This document shows, piece after piece, positions 31,321 to 39,799 of a DNA stretch of 64,000 nucleotides; the first letter of the stretch is position 1; every line of letters begins with the position of its first letter. Position numbers and translations under genes: made by a program. The notes beneath the pieces were generated by a model, which did not search any database, was not told the origin of the DNA, and saw only the letters and a program-made list of their open reading frames with translations. Where the stretch lies: the NCBI RefSeq assembly GCF_000331305.1, contig NZ_KB217478.1, forward strand, positions 5,305,595 through 5,369,594. Reading direction: 5' to 3'. The stretch comes from Calothrix sp. PCC 7103 (GTDB lineage: Bacteria; Cyanobacteriota; Cyanobacteriia; Cyanobacteriales; Nostocaceae).

Positions 31321-34300
31321 TTAGTCTAGGTTGCCGTGAATTTTGAAGGCTGCCCAGTAGTAGGGATGGTTATATAGTTTTTGGTTGGTTGGGATGGTGC
31401 TGAGTTTTTGGAGTTGTTCTGCGACTGGCGCCTGTATTTTAGTTCCTCCAAGGGGCGATTTTTTTAGTAAGTCTTCGTACCATTTCTTTAATTCACCTGC
31501 GGTTAGTTCTTTTAACCATGCTGTTGCTTCGTTTAGGGCAGTAGGAGCAGGTTTTCCTTGTTTGAGTCTTCGATAAAATTCGGTCATTACTAGCGCATTG
31601 GCAATATTATCAACCATCCATTGTGTTGTTAATACATGGTTAACACCTGCTTTCATTAGTTCGCTGACTATACCTACATATTCTGTGGTTATTTTTTGGT
31701 CTGTGGTGATTGTTGTTTGACCTGAAAGGGTTATTAGTGAATAGTTACACAGAATTCGCGCATTAATTTCTTCTAACGAAAGCTTTTGTTCTTCTGCTAG
31801 TAATAGTTGTGATTGTTTGGAGTTGTTTGCGTTGTCGTTTGCGTATCCGGTAAAATGCAGGATGCTATGGTTACTCAGTGCGTTGAGTACTTCTTGCTTT
31901 GTTGCTTTTGCTGCCTGAATTCGTTTGACTTGATTAAATAGATTTGTAATACCTTCTGTTTGTATTTTTACTGATTCTAGTAATGGATAACCTTTAGTGG
32001 TTGGCGCCTCTATACTTAGTAATGATTGTGTTTCGACAGGTTGCGAAGTTTGATTTTTAAGTGCTAATGCTAGTTCGGCAGTCGGAAAATATGTGATTGT
32101 TTTTATGCTGGGTAGTAAGAATAGGGCATGAAGTGGATATTTAAATAAATCGCGATGAGGTATTAATATTAACTTTGTAATGCCTTCGAGTTCTTGTTCG
32201 ATGGCGCCAATACTTAAAATTTCACGAAGTTTGAGCAGTCGCGCTTCCATGAAAGGTACCCAAGATTCTTCTACATTCTGGTTCCATTCAGTTGCCCAGT
32301 CTTCAAATGCTGTTAAATTTACAATTACTTCGGGTACTGGTATTTCGTTCATTTCACCAATGTTCAACATTGGTGTAAATACAAGTGTTGGTTCTGGATG
32401 CTTTGTTTTGACGATAAAGCTTCGTAAGCCAGAAGGACTGATGTGCCAATATATAATAGCTGTTGTGGAATTGACTAAATTTTGTATTGATTTGTAGCTC
32501 GGAGAATAGAAGTTGTCAACAAAACCAAATTGTTGCCAATTTAAACAAGCATTTTTACCAAATTCGGCTAGTTCTAAAGCTTGGAGTAGCTCACCTGATT
32601 GTACGGCAATATCTACTGCTAGTTGTCCGATACCAGCAAATTTTAATGCTAAATCTTTTTTGCTATTATTGTCGCGCTGTGAGTCGTTTAAGGTATTTGA
32701 TAATAAAGTCGCTGCATAAGTTTGAAATTGTTGTGCCTGTAAAGTATCACCGAATCCGAGTAAAACTATAATGATGTTTTGTAAAACTTCTAAATGTAAT
32801 GATATAAAATCTGTACTATTAACAGCCGATAATGCTTGATTATAAGCGTAAATAGCTTGTGACCAATCATCTGAAATATAAGTGTATCGCTTGCCTCTAT
32901 CGTAATAAGCATTACCAAGTGCTATATGTAATTTACACCAAACTTCAGGTTGAGTATCTTTATTTATATAGTCAACAGCTACTGCATAAGTAGCTAATTT
33001 TCCTTCCGAACCGCGCGCGTTTAATGCCGGATTTTCATTTGCAATTGAACTATGCGAACTTAAGTAATAATCGAAATCCGCAGATTTTTCTACGGTATTC
33101 GCACGCGCTATCCATGCTTCGGTACTGTCGCTTTGTAGTTGAATTGCGTAGTCGAATGATAAAATGGCATCTTCATATTTTTCTGAAGCTGCTAGTAGTA
33201 AACCTCGGTTGTACCAAGCTGCAAATATATTTGGCTCTCTATCAACCGTTTGGTCATAGCATATAAGCGCTTGATATGAGTCTCCAAGTTGCTCCCAAGC
33301 GATGGCTTTGTTGAACCAAGCTAAATATACATTGGGGTTAATATCAAGTGCTTTATCCCATGATGCTATTGCTTGATGCCATTCTCCCAGACTTGCTTGA
33401 AGTACACCTCGGTCTATCCAAATTTCATAAAATTCTGGGTTGAGTGCAAGAGCATTATCATAAGACTCAACGGCATCTTCGTGTCGATTACATTTGTCGA
33501 GTGCTACTCCACGCAGGTACCAAAGTTCATAAGAGCCTGGTTGCGATTTTAGGGCTTTTTGATATGAAATAACGGCTTCTTCCCATTGTTCTAATTGTGC
33601 CATCGCTAACCCACGTTGATACCAGGCGCCTGAGTGTTGCGGTTGTATTTCCACGGCTTCGTCAAATGAGGTAATAGCTTCAGAATATTGTTTATTTTGT
33701 GACAGTGCAATTCCGCGATAATACCAATTTTCTGGATCCATTGGTTCAAGTTGTGTCGCACGGTCATAGCAACTAATTGCTTCAGATATTTGCCAAAGTT
33801 TTAATAATGCTAATCCTTTACCTGCCCACGCATCACCATAGTCTGATTTAATTTCAATCGCTTTATCAAATGACGCTATTGCTTCTGAGTATCTTTCAAG
33901 CTCACCTAAACTGGCGCCTCGATTAAACCAAGCTTTGTAATAATCGGGTTTAATGGCAATTGCATTTTCATAACTGGCAATGGCTTGAGGCAAGTTTTTC
34001 AAGTGGAACAGGGCTAAACCTCTATTAAACCAGTATTCATAAGCATCAGGTGCCAAAGCAATTGCTTGGTCATACGAAAATACAGCAGCTGATAAATTTT
34101 CGGCTTTAGTTTGCGCTAAAGCTTGATAGAACCATGCTTGTGCTTCTAGTTGCTTAGATGCTTGGTTGGGGATATCAACAAATATTTGCGAGGTACTACC
34201 AGAAGAAAGTAACCCAGATGCTAACTGTTCAACTAAATTTGCACTTTGTTGTAACCGCACCCAAAGCTCGTCAAGCGTTACCGCGACGGTTGGGGACATC

Positions 34301-35673
34301 TCAGTAAGTGCATCGTCTAAGTTGTCCTGTATCGGTAAAACGGTTGGACGCTGTACTGGAATTATTGGAGAATCTAAATCAATTTCTTCTTCAACTGTTT
34401 CAGTAGGCGCCTCTGGTGCAATAAACTCAATATAATTTTCGTCTATTATCCGCGCCCACTGTTCGCCTGTGGTAATTTCTTCAACAACTGTTTCAGTAGG
34501 CACCGCAATTTGAACTTCTGGCTCTGTATCTGTACCCCATAAATCCTCTCCTAGCTCAGTAATTAAATATTGCCCTGGGGTATTTAATAATGCGGGAGTA
34601 ATTTCTTCTTCTAATGTGGTAGGAGAAGGCGCCAAATTTTCATTGACTAATTCATTAGTTAAATTAGATTCGTATATCACAGGTTCAAGAAGCGACGCAG
34701 GCTCTGAATCCCATAATTCCTCTCCGTACTGGCGTAACAGTTCTTCTTGCTGCTGTGTATCTGTAATTTCTTCTTCTATTTCGACATTTTCAACATTTTC
34801 TATTTCGATATTTTCGACTATTTCTACATTATTAATATTACTTTCTGTTGTAGAAATTACATCATTATTTGGTTCGTTTATATAATTTGTTACTTGTTGT
34901 TCTTGTATTCCCCACAAATCTTCACCGAACTGACGCAGTAAGTTTTGTCCGGGTGTATCACAAAAAACACTATCAACATCTTCAGTTACTGATGTTATCG
35001 CTGTGTTGCTTATTAAATCTGAATAGTAAATTGAATCGGGTTGAGAAGTGGACTGCTCAAACTCTTGTAAATCTTCACTATATATATCGAGCAAATCTTG
35101 CCCAGATATTTCTGGTGGTAATTCAAAATCAGCAGTTGAGGAATTATCGAAATCTAAATCTTGAGAGTCTGTACTAGATAATGAAATAGCAGATTCGTAG
35201 TTTGGATTAGGCACGATTATCTCGATACTTCCTTCGCTAACTTCGTCGTTACGAATATCTTGCCATGAAACACCTGTATTACGAGCAAGCAGCCGCATCC
35301 CTATATCGTGAGCAAAGTCTCCGACAGTGCCAATTTCTAACTCTCCTAATTGCACCAGTCGAAACGCTAGCTCTTCATTTGGTGCAGGAGAAGTCAGCAA
35401 TCGCTCGCCAAAAATTTGCAACCACTCTAACCAGCGTTGTGTACTTATACGATTGGACATTCGTTCTAAGTATTTGATTGCCCAAGTTTGCCCACGTGCT
35501 TGACTCACACCTTCTAGCAACTGGGTAAACAAATACTCTAAATCGGCATTAGTTAACATCGGTGGTGATTGCACCACAGTTTGTTGCGTTACCAATACCC
35601 TCGAACGCTCTTTCTTTTTACCAAACAGTTGCTGGAAAAACTTTCTAAGCAATTTTATTAACCGCCTGAGCAT
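31321..35673 (-). CDS. TPR protein with degenerate CHAT-like domain
   Basis: A 1450-residue protein in four parts. Residues 1-140 are an N-terminal domain shared with the next upstream gene and start with an amphipathic helix (LRRLIKLLRKFFQQLFG). Residues 140-515 are an acidic, probably disordered region with four short repeats of the form LLxxxGEDLW. About ten consecutive 34-residue TPRs run from near 515 to 860 (for example AWFNRGASLGELERYSEAIA). The C-terminus (1220-1450) has the CHAT architecture and ends YYWAAFKIHG. Catalytic residues are lost: HFTGYA replaces HFxGHG and LSGQTT replaces LSACET. It may be a scaffold or a pseudoenzyme. P450 follows in the same operon. Confidence 0.85.
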   Translation of the reverse strand: MLRRLIKLLRKFFQQLFGKKKERSRVLVTQQTVVQSPPMLTNADLEYLFTQLLEGVSQARGQTWAIKYLERMSNRISTQRWLEWLQIFGERLLTSPAPNEELAFRLVQLGELEIGTVGDFAHDIGMRLLARNTGVSWQDIRNDEVSEGSIEIIVPNPNYESAISLSSTDSQDLDFDNSSTADFELPPEISGQDLLDIYSEDLQEFEQSTSQPDSIYYSDLISNTAITSVTEDVDSVFCDTPGQNLLRQFGEDLWGIQEQQVTNYINEPNNDVISTTESNINNVEIVENIEIENVENVEIEEEITDTQQQEELLRQYGEELWDSEPASLLEPVIYESNLTNELVNENLAPSPTTLEEEITPALLNTPGQYLITELGEDLWGTDTEPEVQIAVPTETVVEEITTGEQWARIIDENYIEFIAPEAPTETVEEEIDLDSPIIPVQRPTVLPIQDNLDDALTEMSPTVAVTLDELWVRLQQSANLVEQLASGLLSSGSTSQIFVDIPNQASKQLEAQAWFYQALAQTKAENLSAAVFSYDQAIALAPDAYEYWFNRGLALFHLKNLPQAIASYENAIAIKPDYYKAWFNRGASLGELERYSEAIASFDKAIEIKSDYGDAWAGKGLALLKLWQISEAISCYDRATQLEPMDPENWYYRGIALSQNKQYSEAITSFDEAVEIQPQHSGAWYQRGLAMAQLEQWEEAVISYQKALKSQPGSYELWYLRGVALDKCNRHEDAVESYDNALALNPEFYEIWIDRGVLQASLGEWHQAIASWDKALDINPNVYLAWFNKAIAWEQLGDSYQALICYDQTVDREPNIFAAWYNRGLLLAASEKYEDAILSFDYAIQLQSDSTEAWIARANTVEKSADFDYYLSSHSSIANENPALNARGSEGKLATYAVAVDYINKDTQPEVWCKLHIALGNAYYDRGKRYTYISDDWSQAIYAYNQALSAVNSTDFISLHLEVLQNIIIVLLGFGDTLQAQQFQTYAATLLSNTLNDSQRDNNSKKDLALKFAGIGQLAVDIAVQSGELLQALELAEFGKNACLNWQQFGFVDNFYSPSYKSIQNLVNSTTAIIYWHISPSGLRSFIVKTKHPEPTLVFTPMLNIGEMNEIPVPEVIVNLTAFEDWATEWNQNVEESWVPFMEARLLKLREILSIGAIEQELEGITKLILIPHRDLFKYPLHALFLLPSIKTITYFPTAELALALKNQTSQPVETQSLLSIEAPTTKGYPLLESVKIQTEGITNLFNQVKRIQAAKATKQEVLNALSNHSILHFTGYANDNANNSKQSQLLLAEEQKLSLEEINARILCNYSLITLSGQTTITTDQKITTEYVGIVSELMKAGVNHVLTTQWMVDNIANALVMTEFYRRLKQGKPAPTALNEATAWLKELTAGELKKWYEDLLKKSPLGGTKIQAPVAEQLQKLSTIPTNQKLYNHPYYWAAFKIHGNLD

Positions 35674-36635: not shown

Positions 36636-36904
36636 CTACATGCACCTTTATTTGCTTGGTGTGTACCCGTTTATTGTAGCTATGGCGCTGCACTTTAGTG
36701 GTGTATCAATTAAATAAAATCTACAGAAAAAATTTGTATTAGTTTAAGTAATCTATATAATATTTAAATTTTATGAATGTAGAAAAATGTTCACGGGGTG
36801 AGATTTTGCATTCCCTAGTGCTTAAAATATATATTCTCAGCTAGTCCCACCTAGGGCACTTGTGTAATTTCAACGCCTCATTCGGCATTAAAATCACTAA
36901 TACC

Positions 36905-39799
36905 ATGTCTTACGAACCCTTACATCACAAGTACCGTCCAAAAAGCTTTAAAGAGCTGGTGGGACAATCTGCTATAGCAACAACTCTTACTAATGCTATC
37001 AATACGTCTCGTATTGCGCCTGCGTATTTATTTACTGGCCCGCGTGGTACTGGTAAAACATCGAGTGCGCGTATTCTCGCCAAATCGTTAAATTGCCTTA
37101 GCGGCCCACACCCAACAGCTACACCGTGTGAAAAGTGCGACGTTTGCCTAGGAATTACCAAAGGTTATACCGTCGATGTTATTGAAATAGACGCAGCAAG
37201 TAACACAGGTGTCGAAAATGTCCGCGACATCATCGAAAAAGCTCAGTTTGCTCCCGTCCAGTGTCGATATAAGGTATATGTCATCGACGAATGTCTAACT
37301 GGAGATTCTCTCGTACTGACAAGCGAGGGATTAGTCAGAATAGATAATCCTGAAATAAAAGGGAAGAAAGTCCTAAGTTATAACGATTCCACAGGAAACT
37401 GGGAATACAAACAAGTTGTTCGTTGGTTCGACCAAGGCGAACGTCAAACCTTGGTTATCAAAACAACTAATCGTGAAATTCGATGCACAGGCAATCATTT
37501 AATTAGGACTGACCAAGGGTGGATACCAGCAAGAGACGTAAAAAAAGGAACGAAGATACTATCTCCGGCGAATGTGGTTGTGGCGCCTTCATTTACAAAT
37601 ATGGTGAAGACGAACGCATCCAGAGATTTGTATCTGGACACCACTTCAAAGGCAATACCTACGGACAAAAAATGGATGATGGGTCACTCAGTCTTAGCCC
37701 TCAAGGTAGTCCGCAAGTTCAGTTGCATACAGAAGGATTCTCCAGCCAAGAAAATCAAATTATTGCTAACTGGCTTACAGAAATTGGATATCCAGCAACA
37801 ACCAAGTACTACACGAGAAGTAGCACAAGCAAACAATACCACTACATCCACATGGGGGCAAATACCAGTAGAAAGTGGTTGGCAGACCTCAGAAAATACT
37901 CAATCCCCTCAATGGACTACAAGTTTGGAGACGGTAGAATCTGTTCACCCAGGTAGAATTCAGCGCGTCTATGATATTGAGGTTGAAGACAATCATAATT
38001 TTGTTGCGAATGGACTGAGTGTCCATAACTGCCACATGCTTAGTACACAGGCGTTTAATGCGCTACTAAAGACACTAGAGGAACCACCTAAGCATATTGT
38101 CTTCATACTCGCTACGACTGACCCACAAAGAGTACTGCCTACAATTATTTCACGCTGCCAAAGATTTGATTTCCGTAGAATACCATTGGATGCGATGGTA
38201 TCTCATTTAACTGATATAGCGATAAAGGAAAATATCAATATTACAACCGAAGCGATTACTTTGGTAGCACAGTTGTCACAGGGTGGGTTGCGTGATGCGG
38301 AAAGTTTACTCGACCAGTTGAGTTTATTGCCTGAGCAAGTTAATCCAAATAATGTTTGGGATTTGGTAGGTACTGTTAGCGAACATGATTTGTATTGGTT
38401 ATTTAAAGCTATCGCTGCTGATAATGCTGAGGAGTTAATTGATACTACCCGTCAAATTCTGGATAGAGGACGTGAACCGCTAACTATTTTACAAAACCTT
38501 GCTGGTTTTTACCGAGATTTGCTAATTGCCAAAACAGCTTCTAACCGTGGTGACTTGGTTGCTTGTACTCAAGAAACTTGGCAAGCTCTCGTTGAATTGG
38601 TAAAAAACATTGATATTCATGGAATTTTGGCAGGACAGCAGCATTTACGCAACGCTGAAGTTCAACTTAAAAATACTACTCAACCGCGTTTGTGGTTGGA
38701 AGTTACGCTTCTTGGTTTACTTCCATCTGCGCTTTCTCAAGTGGCGCCAAGTCCTAATAGTCCTAATATGAGTGTTCAAGCGGCGCCTATATCTACCCAG
38801 CAGCCACATAACAATAACTCATCGACCAATGGTAAGGCGCCCATACAACCAATAAATCAACCAATAAATCAACCAATAAATCAACCAATAAATCCACCGA
38901 CAAATAATCACCAAGCGCAAACCCAGTCTCAACCAGTTAATAACCAACCAGTAGTACACCCGGAGGCGCCACCTACTAATAACCAACCAGTAAGTAACAA
39001 TCCAAATGATGACCTAGCACAAACTTGGCAGAAAGTACTATCTCATCTTGAACCTATATCAAGACGTGAAATGCTGCGTCAGATGTGTAATGTAATTGAA
39101 ATTGGCTCCTCATTTGCTCGACTTGGTGTTAAACAAGCTTGGCATAAACGGGTTCAAGAAGACTTGCCGATTATTCGACGAGCTTTTAAAGCTACTTTTA
39201 ATCGCGAAATTACTGTAAATCTAGAAGTTCTTAACTCAGGTTCAAATCGTACTAAACAAAACGGTGTAGCTTATACGACTGAGGAACCTCCCCCGACAAC
39301 ACATGTAGAACCTGACCCTGTTATATCGAGTCATGGTAACAAAACTACTCAAAATGGAAATAATCTACAAAATACTACATCGTACTTAAATAAAGAAACT
39401 TTACAAAATAAAGTACAAAATAAAGTACAAGAGAATTCTGTACAAAATGGTAATGGCGCCCAAAACCATTTAAATACGGCACCGAAATATACTCCCCAAG
39501 ATGCTCAGGTACAGAAACCTATAGAGGAAACACCTGTACATAAATCTGATTTATCTAATTTATCTTCTAATGCACTTACAGAAGAGGCACCGATTAACGA
39601 AGAAGTGTCACCGACATTATCCATACAACAACCAAGCACAATATCAAGTGTGGATGTTGAGAAGGTTTGGTATGCTGCCGAACGTTTAGCACAGTTTTTT
39701 GATGGACAAGTTATTGGCTATAACGAAGATGCAGCAGAATTTGGGGACTCTGCTGCATCGTCTGATTTGATTGATGTGGTTGAAACTGATGATGAATAA
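36905..39799 (+). CDS. dnaX: DNA polymerase III subunit gamma/tau with intein
   Basis: From the ATG at 36905 (MSYEPLHHKYRPKSFKELV) the precursor is 964 residues; the spliced protein is about 718. The AAA+ part has Walker A GPRGTGKTS and a Cys-rich zinc site (CEKCDVC). The intein interrupts Walker B exactly at VYVIDE/CHMLSTQAFN. The C-terminal half is low complexity and rich in Gln, Asn and Pro. It includes a 12-bp tandem repeat (38846-38893) encoding QPIN, then a tau-type domain (LEPISRREMLRQMCNVIEI) and an acidic end. DnaX is the clamp-loader ATPase. The TTG-initiated extension from 36860 is not needed. It converges on the glycosyltransferase gene with a shared hairpin. Confidence 0.95.
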   Translation: MSYEPLHHKYRPKSFKELVGQSAIATTLTNAINTSRIAPAYLFTGPRGTGKTSSARILAKSLNCLSGPHPTATPCEKCDVCLGITKGYTVDVIEIDAASNTGVENVRDIIEKAQFAPVQCRYKVYVIDECLTGDSLVLTSEGLVRIDNPEIKGKKVLSYNDSTGNWEYKQVVRWFDQGERQTLVIKTTNREIRCTGNHLIRTDQGWIPARDVKKGTKILSPANVVVAPSFTNMVKTNASRDLYLDTTSKAIPTDKKWMMGHSVLALKVVRKFSCIQKDSPAKKIKLLLTGLQKLDIQQQPSTTREVAQANNTTTSTWGQIPVESGWQTSENTQSPQWTTSLETVESVHPGRIQRVYDIEVEDNHNFVANGLSVHNCHMLSTQAFNALLKTLEEPPKHIVFILATTDPQRVLPTIISRCQRFDFRRIPLDAMVSHLTDIAIKENINITTEAITLVAQLSQGGLRDAESLLDQLSLLPEQVNPNNVWDLVGTVSEHDLYWLFKAIAADNAEELIDTTRQILDRGREPLTILQNLAGFYRDLLIAKTASNRGDLVACTQETWQALVELVKNIDIHGILAGQQHLRNAEVQLKNTTQPRLWLEVTLLGLLPSALSQVAPSPNSPNMSVQAAPISTQQPHNNNSSTNGKAPIQPINQPINQPINQPINPPTNNHQAQTQSQPVNNQPVVHPEAPPTNNQPVSNNPNDDLAQTWQKVLSHLEPISRREMLRQMCNVIEIGSSFARLGVKQAWHKRVQEDLPIIRRAFKATFNREITVNLEVLNSGSNRTKQNGVAYTTEEPPPTTHVEPDPVISSHGNKTTQNGNNLQNTTSYLNKETLQNKVQNKVQENSVQNGNGAQNHLNTAPKYTPQDAQVQKPIEETPVHKSDLSNLSSNALTEEAPINEEVSPTLSIQQPSTISSVDVEKVWYAAERLAQFFDGQVIGYNEDAAEFGDSAASSDLIDVVETDDE
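37540..37546 (+). promoter_or_regulatory. Candidate -1 slippery heptamer, A AAA AAA
   Basis: The seven A residues are phased GTA AAA AAA in the dnaX frame, which is the X XXY YYZ form of a -1 slippery site. A slip here enters the endonuclease frame directly (AGG AAC GAA). No strong downstream pseudoknot or upstream Shine-Dalgarno is obvious. RNA polymerase slippage on the same run is also possible. Confidence 0.4.
37546..37956 (+). pseudogene. LAGLIDADG endonuclease segment in the -1 frame of the intein
   Basis: The frame, open from GTG 37519 to a TAG at 37954, reads about 137 codons past the A7 run. Features are a zinc-finger-like GECGCGAFIYKY and FVSGHHFKGN, then MDDGSLSLS, QLHTEGFSSQENQIIANWL, and YSIPSMDYKF. 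The latter three match the second half of LAGLIDADG_2-type homing endonucleases (WFMDDGS, HTEGFS..EN...WL, IPPSM.YK). The first LAGLIDADG half and the hydrophobic helix just before MDDGS are missing, so cleavage activity is unlikely unless the rest is supplied elsewhere. It has no convincing ribosome-binding site. Confidence 0.7.

Follow-up and report, generated by a model that had tools for sequence, protein, structure and literature searches.

The dnaX gene of the cyanobacterium Calothrix sp. PCC 7103 poses the question of how an intein comes to be open in two reading frames at once. The gene lies on the forward strand at 36905..39799 of the 64,000-nucleotide stretch analysed here (contig NZ_KB217478.1, positions 5,305,595 to 5,369,594; hereafter the window). 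It is interrupted by an intein of 246 residues (37292..38029, forward strand), the middle of which also reads, one base back from the dnaX frame (the −1 frame), as part of a LAGLIDADG homing endonuclease. We are highly confident that this locus is a cyanobacterial dnaX intein of a kind in which a single stretch of DNA holds two genes, here in eroded form. In its complete form this intein is probably a conserved and functional same-strand overlapping gene pair, about 1 kb long (1.3 kb in a 522-residue form) and lying within an essential bacterial gene. In that arrangement the endonuclease would be internally initiated and unlinked from splicing, and the intein frame would be an overprinted, disordered linker kept only stop-free. 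Our computations establish the architecture of the intein, its conservation, purifying selection on the endonuclease frame, stop avoidance in the dnaX frame and the predicted folds.

Two open frames in the Calothrix intein

The essential gene dnaX is recognized by NCBIfam DnaX models with E-values down to 6.6e-241, and is divided into an N-extein (36905-37291) and a C-extein (38030-39796). We chose ATG 36905 as its start; the mechanically called open reading frame (ORF), 36860-39799, opens at TTG 36860. The intein is identified by its sequence and by Pfam and NCBIfam models (Pfam Intein_splicing, E 5.6e-15; intein N-terminal and C-terminal models, E 5.5e-10 and 1.9e-9), and has the defining features of class 1 inteins: Cys1, a block B TxxH motif, the penultimate His with Asn, and Cys+1. 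A first-pass annotation made from the sequence alone had placed an intein with intact Cys1, TGNH, VYDIEV and HN/C blocks here. Its coordinates are exact, its blocks are as described, and a DNA search finds the intein as a single match in the 11.58 Mb genome. The intact blocks and the essential host gene suggest that the intein splices. Its N-terminal splicing part (residues 1-96, 37292..37579) aligns with residues 1-96 of a 430-residue relative, a part with a pLDDT of about 90 in a model of a full-length copy (L061), and alignment and the same model place the C-terminal splicing part, approximately residues 390-430 of full-length relatives, at 37907..38029.

No stop interrupts the −1 frame of the intein over 147 codons (37513-37953). 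Elsewhere in the dnaX ORF the −1 frame reaches at most 29 open codons, and the other shifted frame, with a longest run of 55 codons, has 9 stops over 37519-37953. When the dnaX codons were shuffled synonymously, the −1 frame remained open in 0.02% of 5000 shuffles. The earlier observation that two frames are open together is confirmed. Within this run lies a remnant endonuclease ORF of 145 codons plus a TAG stop (37519..37956, forward strand), whose GTG start (37519..37521) replaces the ATG of 46 of 48 copies with a long ORF; the dnaX codons at this point are GGG TGG in the window and mostly GGA TGG in those copies. Residues 1-51 of the remnant (37519..37671) include the first zinc-like module, CGCG...GHHFKGN, and match positions 1-51 of a profile of the relatives (E 1.4e-16). 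The remainder (37672..37953), from MDDGSLSLS in the second LAGLIDADG motif to the end, matches profile positions 236-330 (E 3.2e-49) and is 80-82% identical to its three best single relatives. The LAGLIDADG_2-type second half recognized in the first pass is thus real, even though Pfam LAGLIDADG_2 alone matches the window −1 frame only weakly and below cut-off (E 0.048). The zinc-finger-like piece noted beside it is also present in the −1 frame, where it is the conserved N-terminus of the same endonuclease.

What the window copy has lost is apparent from alignment with L009, its best-scoring full-length relative. The two differ by a single gap of 552 bp (positions 380-932 of L009, with the junction at 37671..37672 in the window) and are otherwise gap-free at 79% identity; we saw no 1- or 2-base indel. 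Because 552 is a multiple of three, 184 codons are gone in both frames. The dnaX frame loses 184 linker residues, and the endonuclease loses residues 52-235 (profile positions 52-235), including the first LAGLIDADG motif and the second CGCG module. The window copy therefore lacks one of the two LAGLIDADG motifs, so its endonuclease is presumably dead. As the deletion removed the region around motif 1, the intein has apparently been kept for splicing only, with the −1 frame a relic. The earlier proposal of a splicing-only intein is borne out for this genome, in that the intein can at most splice. A LAGLIDADG_2 enzyme acting in trans was also considered: a family search of the Calothrix genome at E ≤ 0.001 gave no match, although it misses the window's own remnant too.

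Conservation of the overlap and selection on its frames

Relatives of the intein are widespread. Among 388 genomes of the order to which Calothrix belongs, 110 match the intein protein at E ≤ 1e-5, the weaker of them perhaps through other inteins, and 45 match the −1 translation at E ≤ 0.001. A profile search across the phylum matches 22 of 386 genomes at E ≤ 1e-5, some only through remnants or free-standing relatives. Full-length copies are inteins of 429-430 residues. In a survey of these that left out seven of 60 loci (L004, L006, L030, L046, L049, L053 and L055), 20 of 22 copies have a −1 ORF of 323-335 codons starting at an ATG at intein nucleotide 227 (0-based), the exceptions (L008 and L041) having a stop inside it. 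Eleven of the −1 proteins align over nearly their full length, one being shortened by its stop, with a mean column identity of 78%.

A scan of named genomes, which catches only loci matching two short peptides, returned 63 loci, 53 cyanobacterial and 10 from Bacillaceae. The cyanobacterial loci come from Nostoc, Anabaena, Calothrix, Fischerella, Brasilonema, Microcoleus, Planktothrix, Lyngbya, Leptolyngbya, Nodosilinea, Phormidesmis, Pseudanabaena, Microcystis, Laspinema, metagenome-assembled genomes and others, and are mostly 430-residue inteins, some shortened by deletion. All 53 carry the endonuclease in the −1 frame, with the adjoining dnaX extein as reference (both exteins matched at 51, the N-extein alone at two), and at none of the loci examined did we see it in the splicing frame of a dnaX intein. 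Across the match, stops are absent from the dnaX frame at 53/53 and from the endonuclease frame at 46/53, and number 8-27 in the third frame. The regular expression used to define inteins forbids dnaX-frame stops and is passed by 49 of the 53; the other four (L084, L087, L097 and L108) are covered by these frame and stop counts, which were made without it. Two Laspinema inteins of 522 residues (L106 and L107) have a −1 ORF of 440-448 codons from stop to stop, with further CGCG modules. The additions in the N-terminal −1 region are modules of approximately 50 residues of the form CGCG...HP that differ in number from copy to copy and might be a zinc-binding DNA-recognition repeat.

Relatives of the endonuclease that lie away from dnaX serve as natural controls. 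The corresponding frame holds 9-26 stops in the ten from Bacillaceae, which are 23-45% identical and have no dnaX extein in the available flanks, and 10-36 stops in four cyanobacterial relatives located outside dnaX; a fifth of the latter (L212) has no ORF by our criteria. These controls agree with the dnaX reading being kept stop-free over the endonuclease.

Codon shuffling gives the same picture from within the dnaX inteins. A 97% filter left 38 of 45 distinct 430-residue copies. In 31 of these the −1 ORF reaches 320 codons or more, and 26 of the 31, complete, named and non-redundant, were used for the shuffles. Shuffling the endonuclease codons synonymously introduces a mean of 6.0 stops into the dnaX frame (12.5 with extein codon usage), compared with none observed, a zero that is partly built in by the intein pattern and for which the filter-free check is the 53/53 above. 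Shuffling the dnaX codons introduces a mean of 14.1 stops into the −1 frame (20.0 with extein usage), again compared with none.

Substitutions were counted in pairs at least 80% identical, which are 79 of 465 pairs and involve 24 of the 31 copies. At dnaX codon positions 1/2/3 the per-site differences are.117/.069/.314 in the N-terminal splicing part,.045/.037/.340 in the C-terminal splicing part and.075/.226/.104 in the overlap, so that the fastest position moves from dnaX position 3 to position 2, the wobble base of the endonuclease. The comparison of dN/dS in the two frames proposed at the first pass separates them: simple two-frame counts over the overlap put the omega of the endonuclease at 0.19-0.29 and that of the dnaX frame at 0.63-0.89. 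Changes that are silent in the endonuclease are 10-15 times rarer when they create a dnaX stop than when they only alter a dnaX residue. All these counts are pairwise and uncorrected for multiple hits or shared ancestry, and two classes of close pairs rest on few sites. Both readings are under selection. The low omega of the endonuclease, the shift in wobble position and the avoidance of stops together identify the endonuclease as the constrained reading of the overlap, with the dnaX reading chiefly kept stop-free.

The predicted structures match this division. Pfam LAGLIDADG_2 (PF03161) recognizes all 11 of the relatives tested (best E 4.2e-23), and their alignment contains two LAGLIDADG motifs, GLIYGTLLGD and GLAWWYMDDG, with their acidic residues, which together place them in the LAGLIDADG_2 family. 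Searched against the PDB, a profile of the −1 proteins finds I-SceI (E 5.2e-8). An AlphaFold model of the L061 −1 protein (pLDDT 86) has I-SceI as its first Foldseek match (2.9e-12) and I-WcaI as its third, and we confidently predict an I-SceI-like fold for the −1 reading. In the model of the L061 dnaX reading, most of residues 1-96 and 390-430 have a pLDDT of about 90, whereas residues 97-389 fall below 50; its best PDB match is the Spirulina DnaX mini-intein 7cfv (61% identity over the aligned part), and over the endonuclease this reading is predicted to be a disordered linker. In the L061 models, the bases that encode endonuclease helix 314-323 also encode dnaX residues 389-399, where the C-terminal splicing strand (392-415) begins, and therefore both readings are predicted to be structured at this point.

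Many of the dnaX inteins have lost part of the endonuclease. Where the alignment is good the deletions are clean multiples of three, for example 273, 282, 348, 420, 510, 603, 804, 876 and 882 bp, and a genome of the same genus (G380) has a mini-intein of only 137 residues. The GTG start of the window occurs also in L002 and L005, both likewise with deleted endonucleases. Our reading of these alignments is that the intein has probably eroded repeatedly towards mini-inteins through deletions obliged to keep dnaX in frame.

Expression, mobility and alternative explanations

The arrangement we favour would work as follows. The dnaX frame encodes a splicing domain in two halves, with a long and by prediction disordered linker between them. 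One base back, almost the whole of this linker, with short parts of both splicing halves, encodes an endonuclease of approximately 330 residues with two N-terminal CGCG zinc-like modules. The endonuclease would be translated separately from the same mRNA, most likely from an internal ATG in GGA TGG, and would cut intein-free dnaX alleles, into which repair would then copy the intein. The dnaX reading would be spliced out after translation, so that the overprinted linker would need little but the absence of stops. In Calothrix, the 552-bp in-frame deletion would have left a splicing-only intein with a relic −1 frame.

The start site suggests that translation of the endonuclease as a protein of its own most likely begins internally, at GGA TGG. 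The ATG is formed by the Gly-Trp codons of dnaX, and the codon before Trp is GGA in 30 of the 31 complete non-redundant copies and GCA in the remaining one, both of which yield ATG; GGA makes up 35% of Gly codons in the C-exteins. The start-codon table leaves out 13 of 60 loci, which lack an intein by the regular expression.

Beyond the limits of the pairwise counts, several observations weigh against a functional, internally initiated endonuclease that homes. The ATG is also kept in 32 of 46 deleted copies, so its conservation is only moderate evidence, and both Laspinema copies have CTG at the start site, the only −1-frame ATG seen in the first 240 nucleotides of their ORF being 36 nucleotides upstream of it. 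We found no Shine-Dalgarno (SD) enrichment upstream of the ATG (anti-SD match −2.10, compared with −2.77 in control windows), and AGGA at a spacing of 10 occurs in only 15 of 31 copies; initiation driven by SD pairing was rejected on this basis. The endonuclease frame is interrupted by stops at seven of the 53 loci. In an analysis of 40 of the 53, identities in the extein correlate with those in the endonuclease (r 0.85) and the trees look broadly alike. One outlier, L065, shares 76% identity with L064 in the extein and 94% in the endonuclease, but the suspected transfer is not confirmed: in the approximately unbiased test the extein tree does not rule out its grouping with the Nostoc set, a group named after the identities had been seen (p 0.37). 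Because of this correlation and this failed tree test, homing is suggested only by the enzyme family and the patchy presence of the intein. Viral carriers were likewise set aside: nine of 16 pattern stretches in viral contigs code for relatives, but these are only 24-31% identical, and their available flanks contain no dnaX extein.

The alternative that survives best, though we consider it unlikely, is that programmed −1 ribosomal frameshifting or transcriptional slippage from dnaX, instead of internal initiation, yields a DnaX-intein-endonuclease fusion. Sites of this kind usually have the −1 phase, E. coli dnaX is a classic case of programmed −1 frameshifting, and the window has a slippery-like A AAA AAA heptamer in the correct dnaX phase (37540..37546, forward strand). 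This run of seven A is, however, not conserved: the longest A-run in that region of the 31 complete relatives is six or less, and is three or four in 24 of them. Canonical X XXY YYZ heptamers within nucleotides 200-300 occur in only three of the 31, at a different place, so there is no conserved slippery site before the −1 frame in these copies, and in 24 of the 31 the last −1-frame stop at nucleotides 200-221 leaves only a short window for a shift. The first-pass annotation had named dual coding or expression by frameshift as the exciting alternative; dual coding turns out to be the state of the complete relatives, whereas the proposed frameshift is not supported.

There is a slim chance that the 145-codon remnant in the window is still translated and useful, for instance in binding dnaX DNA. 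It retains the N-terminal module and the C-terminal part and has no stop yet, but it has lost motif 1 with 184 residues and its ATG has become GTG. That both frames are open follows from a complete ancestor and says little about present use. Less probable still is that the −1 ORF is a fossil throughout, conserved as a by-product of constraint on the dnaX frame. The stops in the endonuclease frame at some loci and the deletions in many dnaX inteins would fit this, but in the overlap the dnaX frame is weakly constrained and most variable at its codon position 2, synonymous shuffles fail to keep such an ORF, and it is the −1 translation that has Pfam- and PDB-level relatives and a confident fold, the dnaX frame being predicted to be disordered. 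Finally, the first-pass explanation of an in-frame endonuclease hit by two compensating frameshifts in this lineage does predict an out-of-frame endonuclease, but we give it almost no credence, since the alignment to L009, where two indels were expected, has one clean 552-bp gap and refutes it for this lineage, and since all 53 loci share the −1 frame with no in-frame dnaX copy among those examined. We therefore retain the overlapping gene pair as the explanation of the locus.

Other intein matches of the Calothrix genome are a DnaE N-terminal half, GyrB, and DnaB with two inteins (contig C7 of this genome, 1236954, 2886057, 7536863 and 7538171; L193-L195 and L197). Judged by eye from the translations, the GyrB intein has an apparent in-frame HNH insertion and the second DnaB intein has LAGLIDADG-like motifs in frame; in the frames displayed for the DnaE, GyrB and DnaB matches we saw no long endonuclease ORF in an alternative frame. 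In a related cyanobacterium (L224, 706-2565), a LAGLIDADG segment is, by eye, in frame with a uracil-DNA glycosylase-like gene that contains an intein, the ordinary in-frame arrangement. Elsewhere in Calothrix dnaX, the C-terminal linker contains a short tandem repeat coding for NQPI units (about 38848-38892, by eye). On the reverse strand, 31321-35673 holds a large ORF of 1450 residues which, judged by eye, has TPR-like repeats and a C-terminal region resembling a CHAT-type domain.

Relation to known inteins and endonucleases

The Ssp DnaX intein of Synechocystis PCC 6803, which shares its host gene with the window intein, is a biotechnology tool whose mini-inteins splice, and the accessible text of the papers on it mentions no out-of-frame endonuclease (PMC3443213, PMC3620165). 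Nor is an out-of-frame endonuclease in a DnaX intein reported among the matches listed from the open literature, from which subscription papers are mostly missing, including the available portions of PMC3443213, PMC3620165, PMC8899391, PMC5009743, PMC3229294 and PMC11855218. In a sentence on overlapping reading frames, the last of these cites Gorbalenya 1998 (Non-canonical inteins, NAR 26:1741), which may already touch on out-of-frame intein endonucleases. What may be new is an intein of the homing-endonuclease kind in which the endonuclease forms a gene of its own, out of frame.

Standard annotation tends to exclude long overlaps on the same strand, and inteins called endonuclease-free may thus hide one in another frame. 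The dnaX intein, with about 330 codons under selection in both readings across dozens of cyanobacterial genomes, offers a natural system for how overlapping genes arise and persist, and it separates endonuclease production from splicing. It may also be relevant to the Ssp DnaX intein as a tool for protein engineering.

The dnaX intein resembles the PI-SceI type of class 1 intein in that a LAGLIDADG endonuclease interrupts the splicing domain and the host is a replication gene. In PI-SceI-type inteins, however, the endonuclease is in frame, whereas here it lies in the −1 frame and so is not part of the spliced polypeptide. With I-SceI and I-WcaI of the Pfam LAGLIDADG_2 family, the dnaX endonuclease shares the two-motif LAGLIDADG sequence and fold, to which it adds N-terminal CGCG modules, two in the 430-residue type and more in the 522-residue type; and whereas I-SceI is intron-encoded, the dnaX enzyme is nested out of frame in an intein. 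The nearest published arrangement that we found is that of the ShiLan domain and the Pacc40 insertion, out-of-frame HNH endonucleases in mycobacteriophage methylase genes (PMC11855218). As far as the accessible text describes them, these likewise hide an endonuclease in a different frame of an inserted segment, and the insert brings no stop into the host frame. They differ in that they are HNH enzymes of phages and that no splicing domain was detected, the insert being thought to be retained in the host protein (PMC11855218), whereas the dnaX case combines a LAGLIDADG endonuclease with an intein splicing domain on a cellular chromosome.

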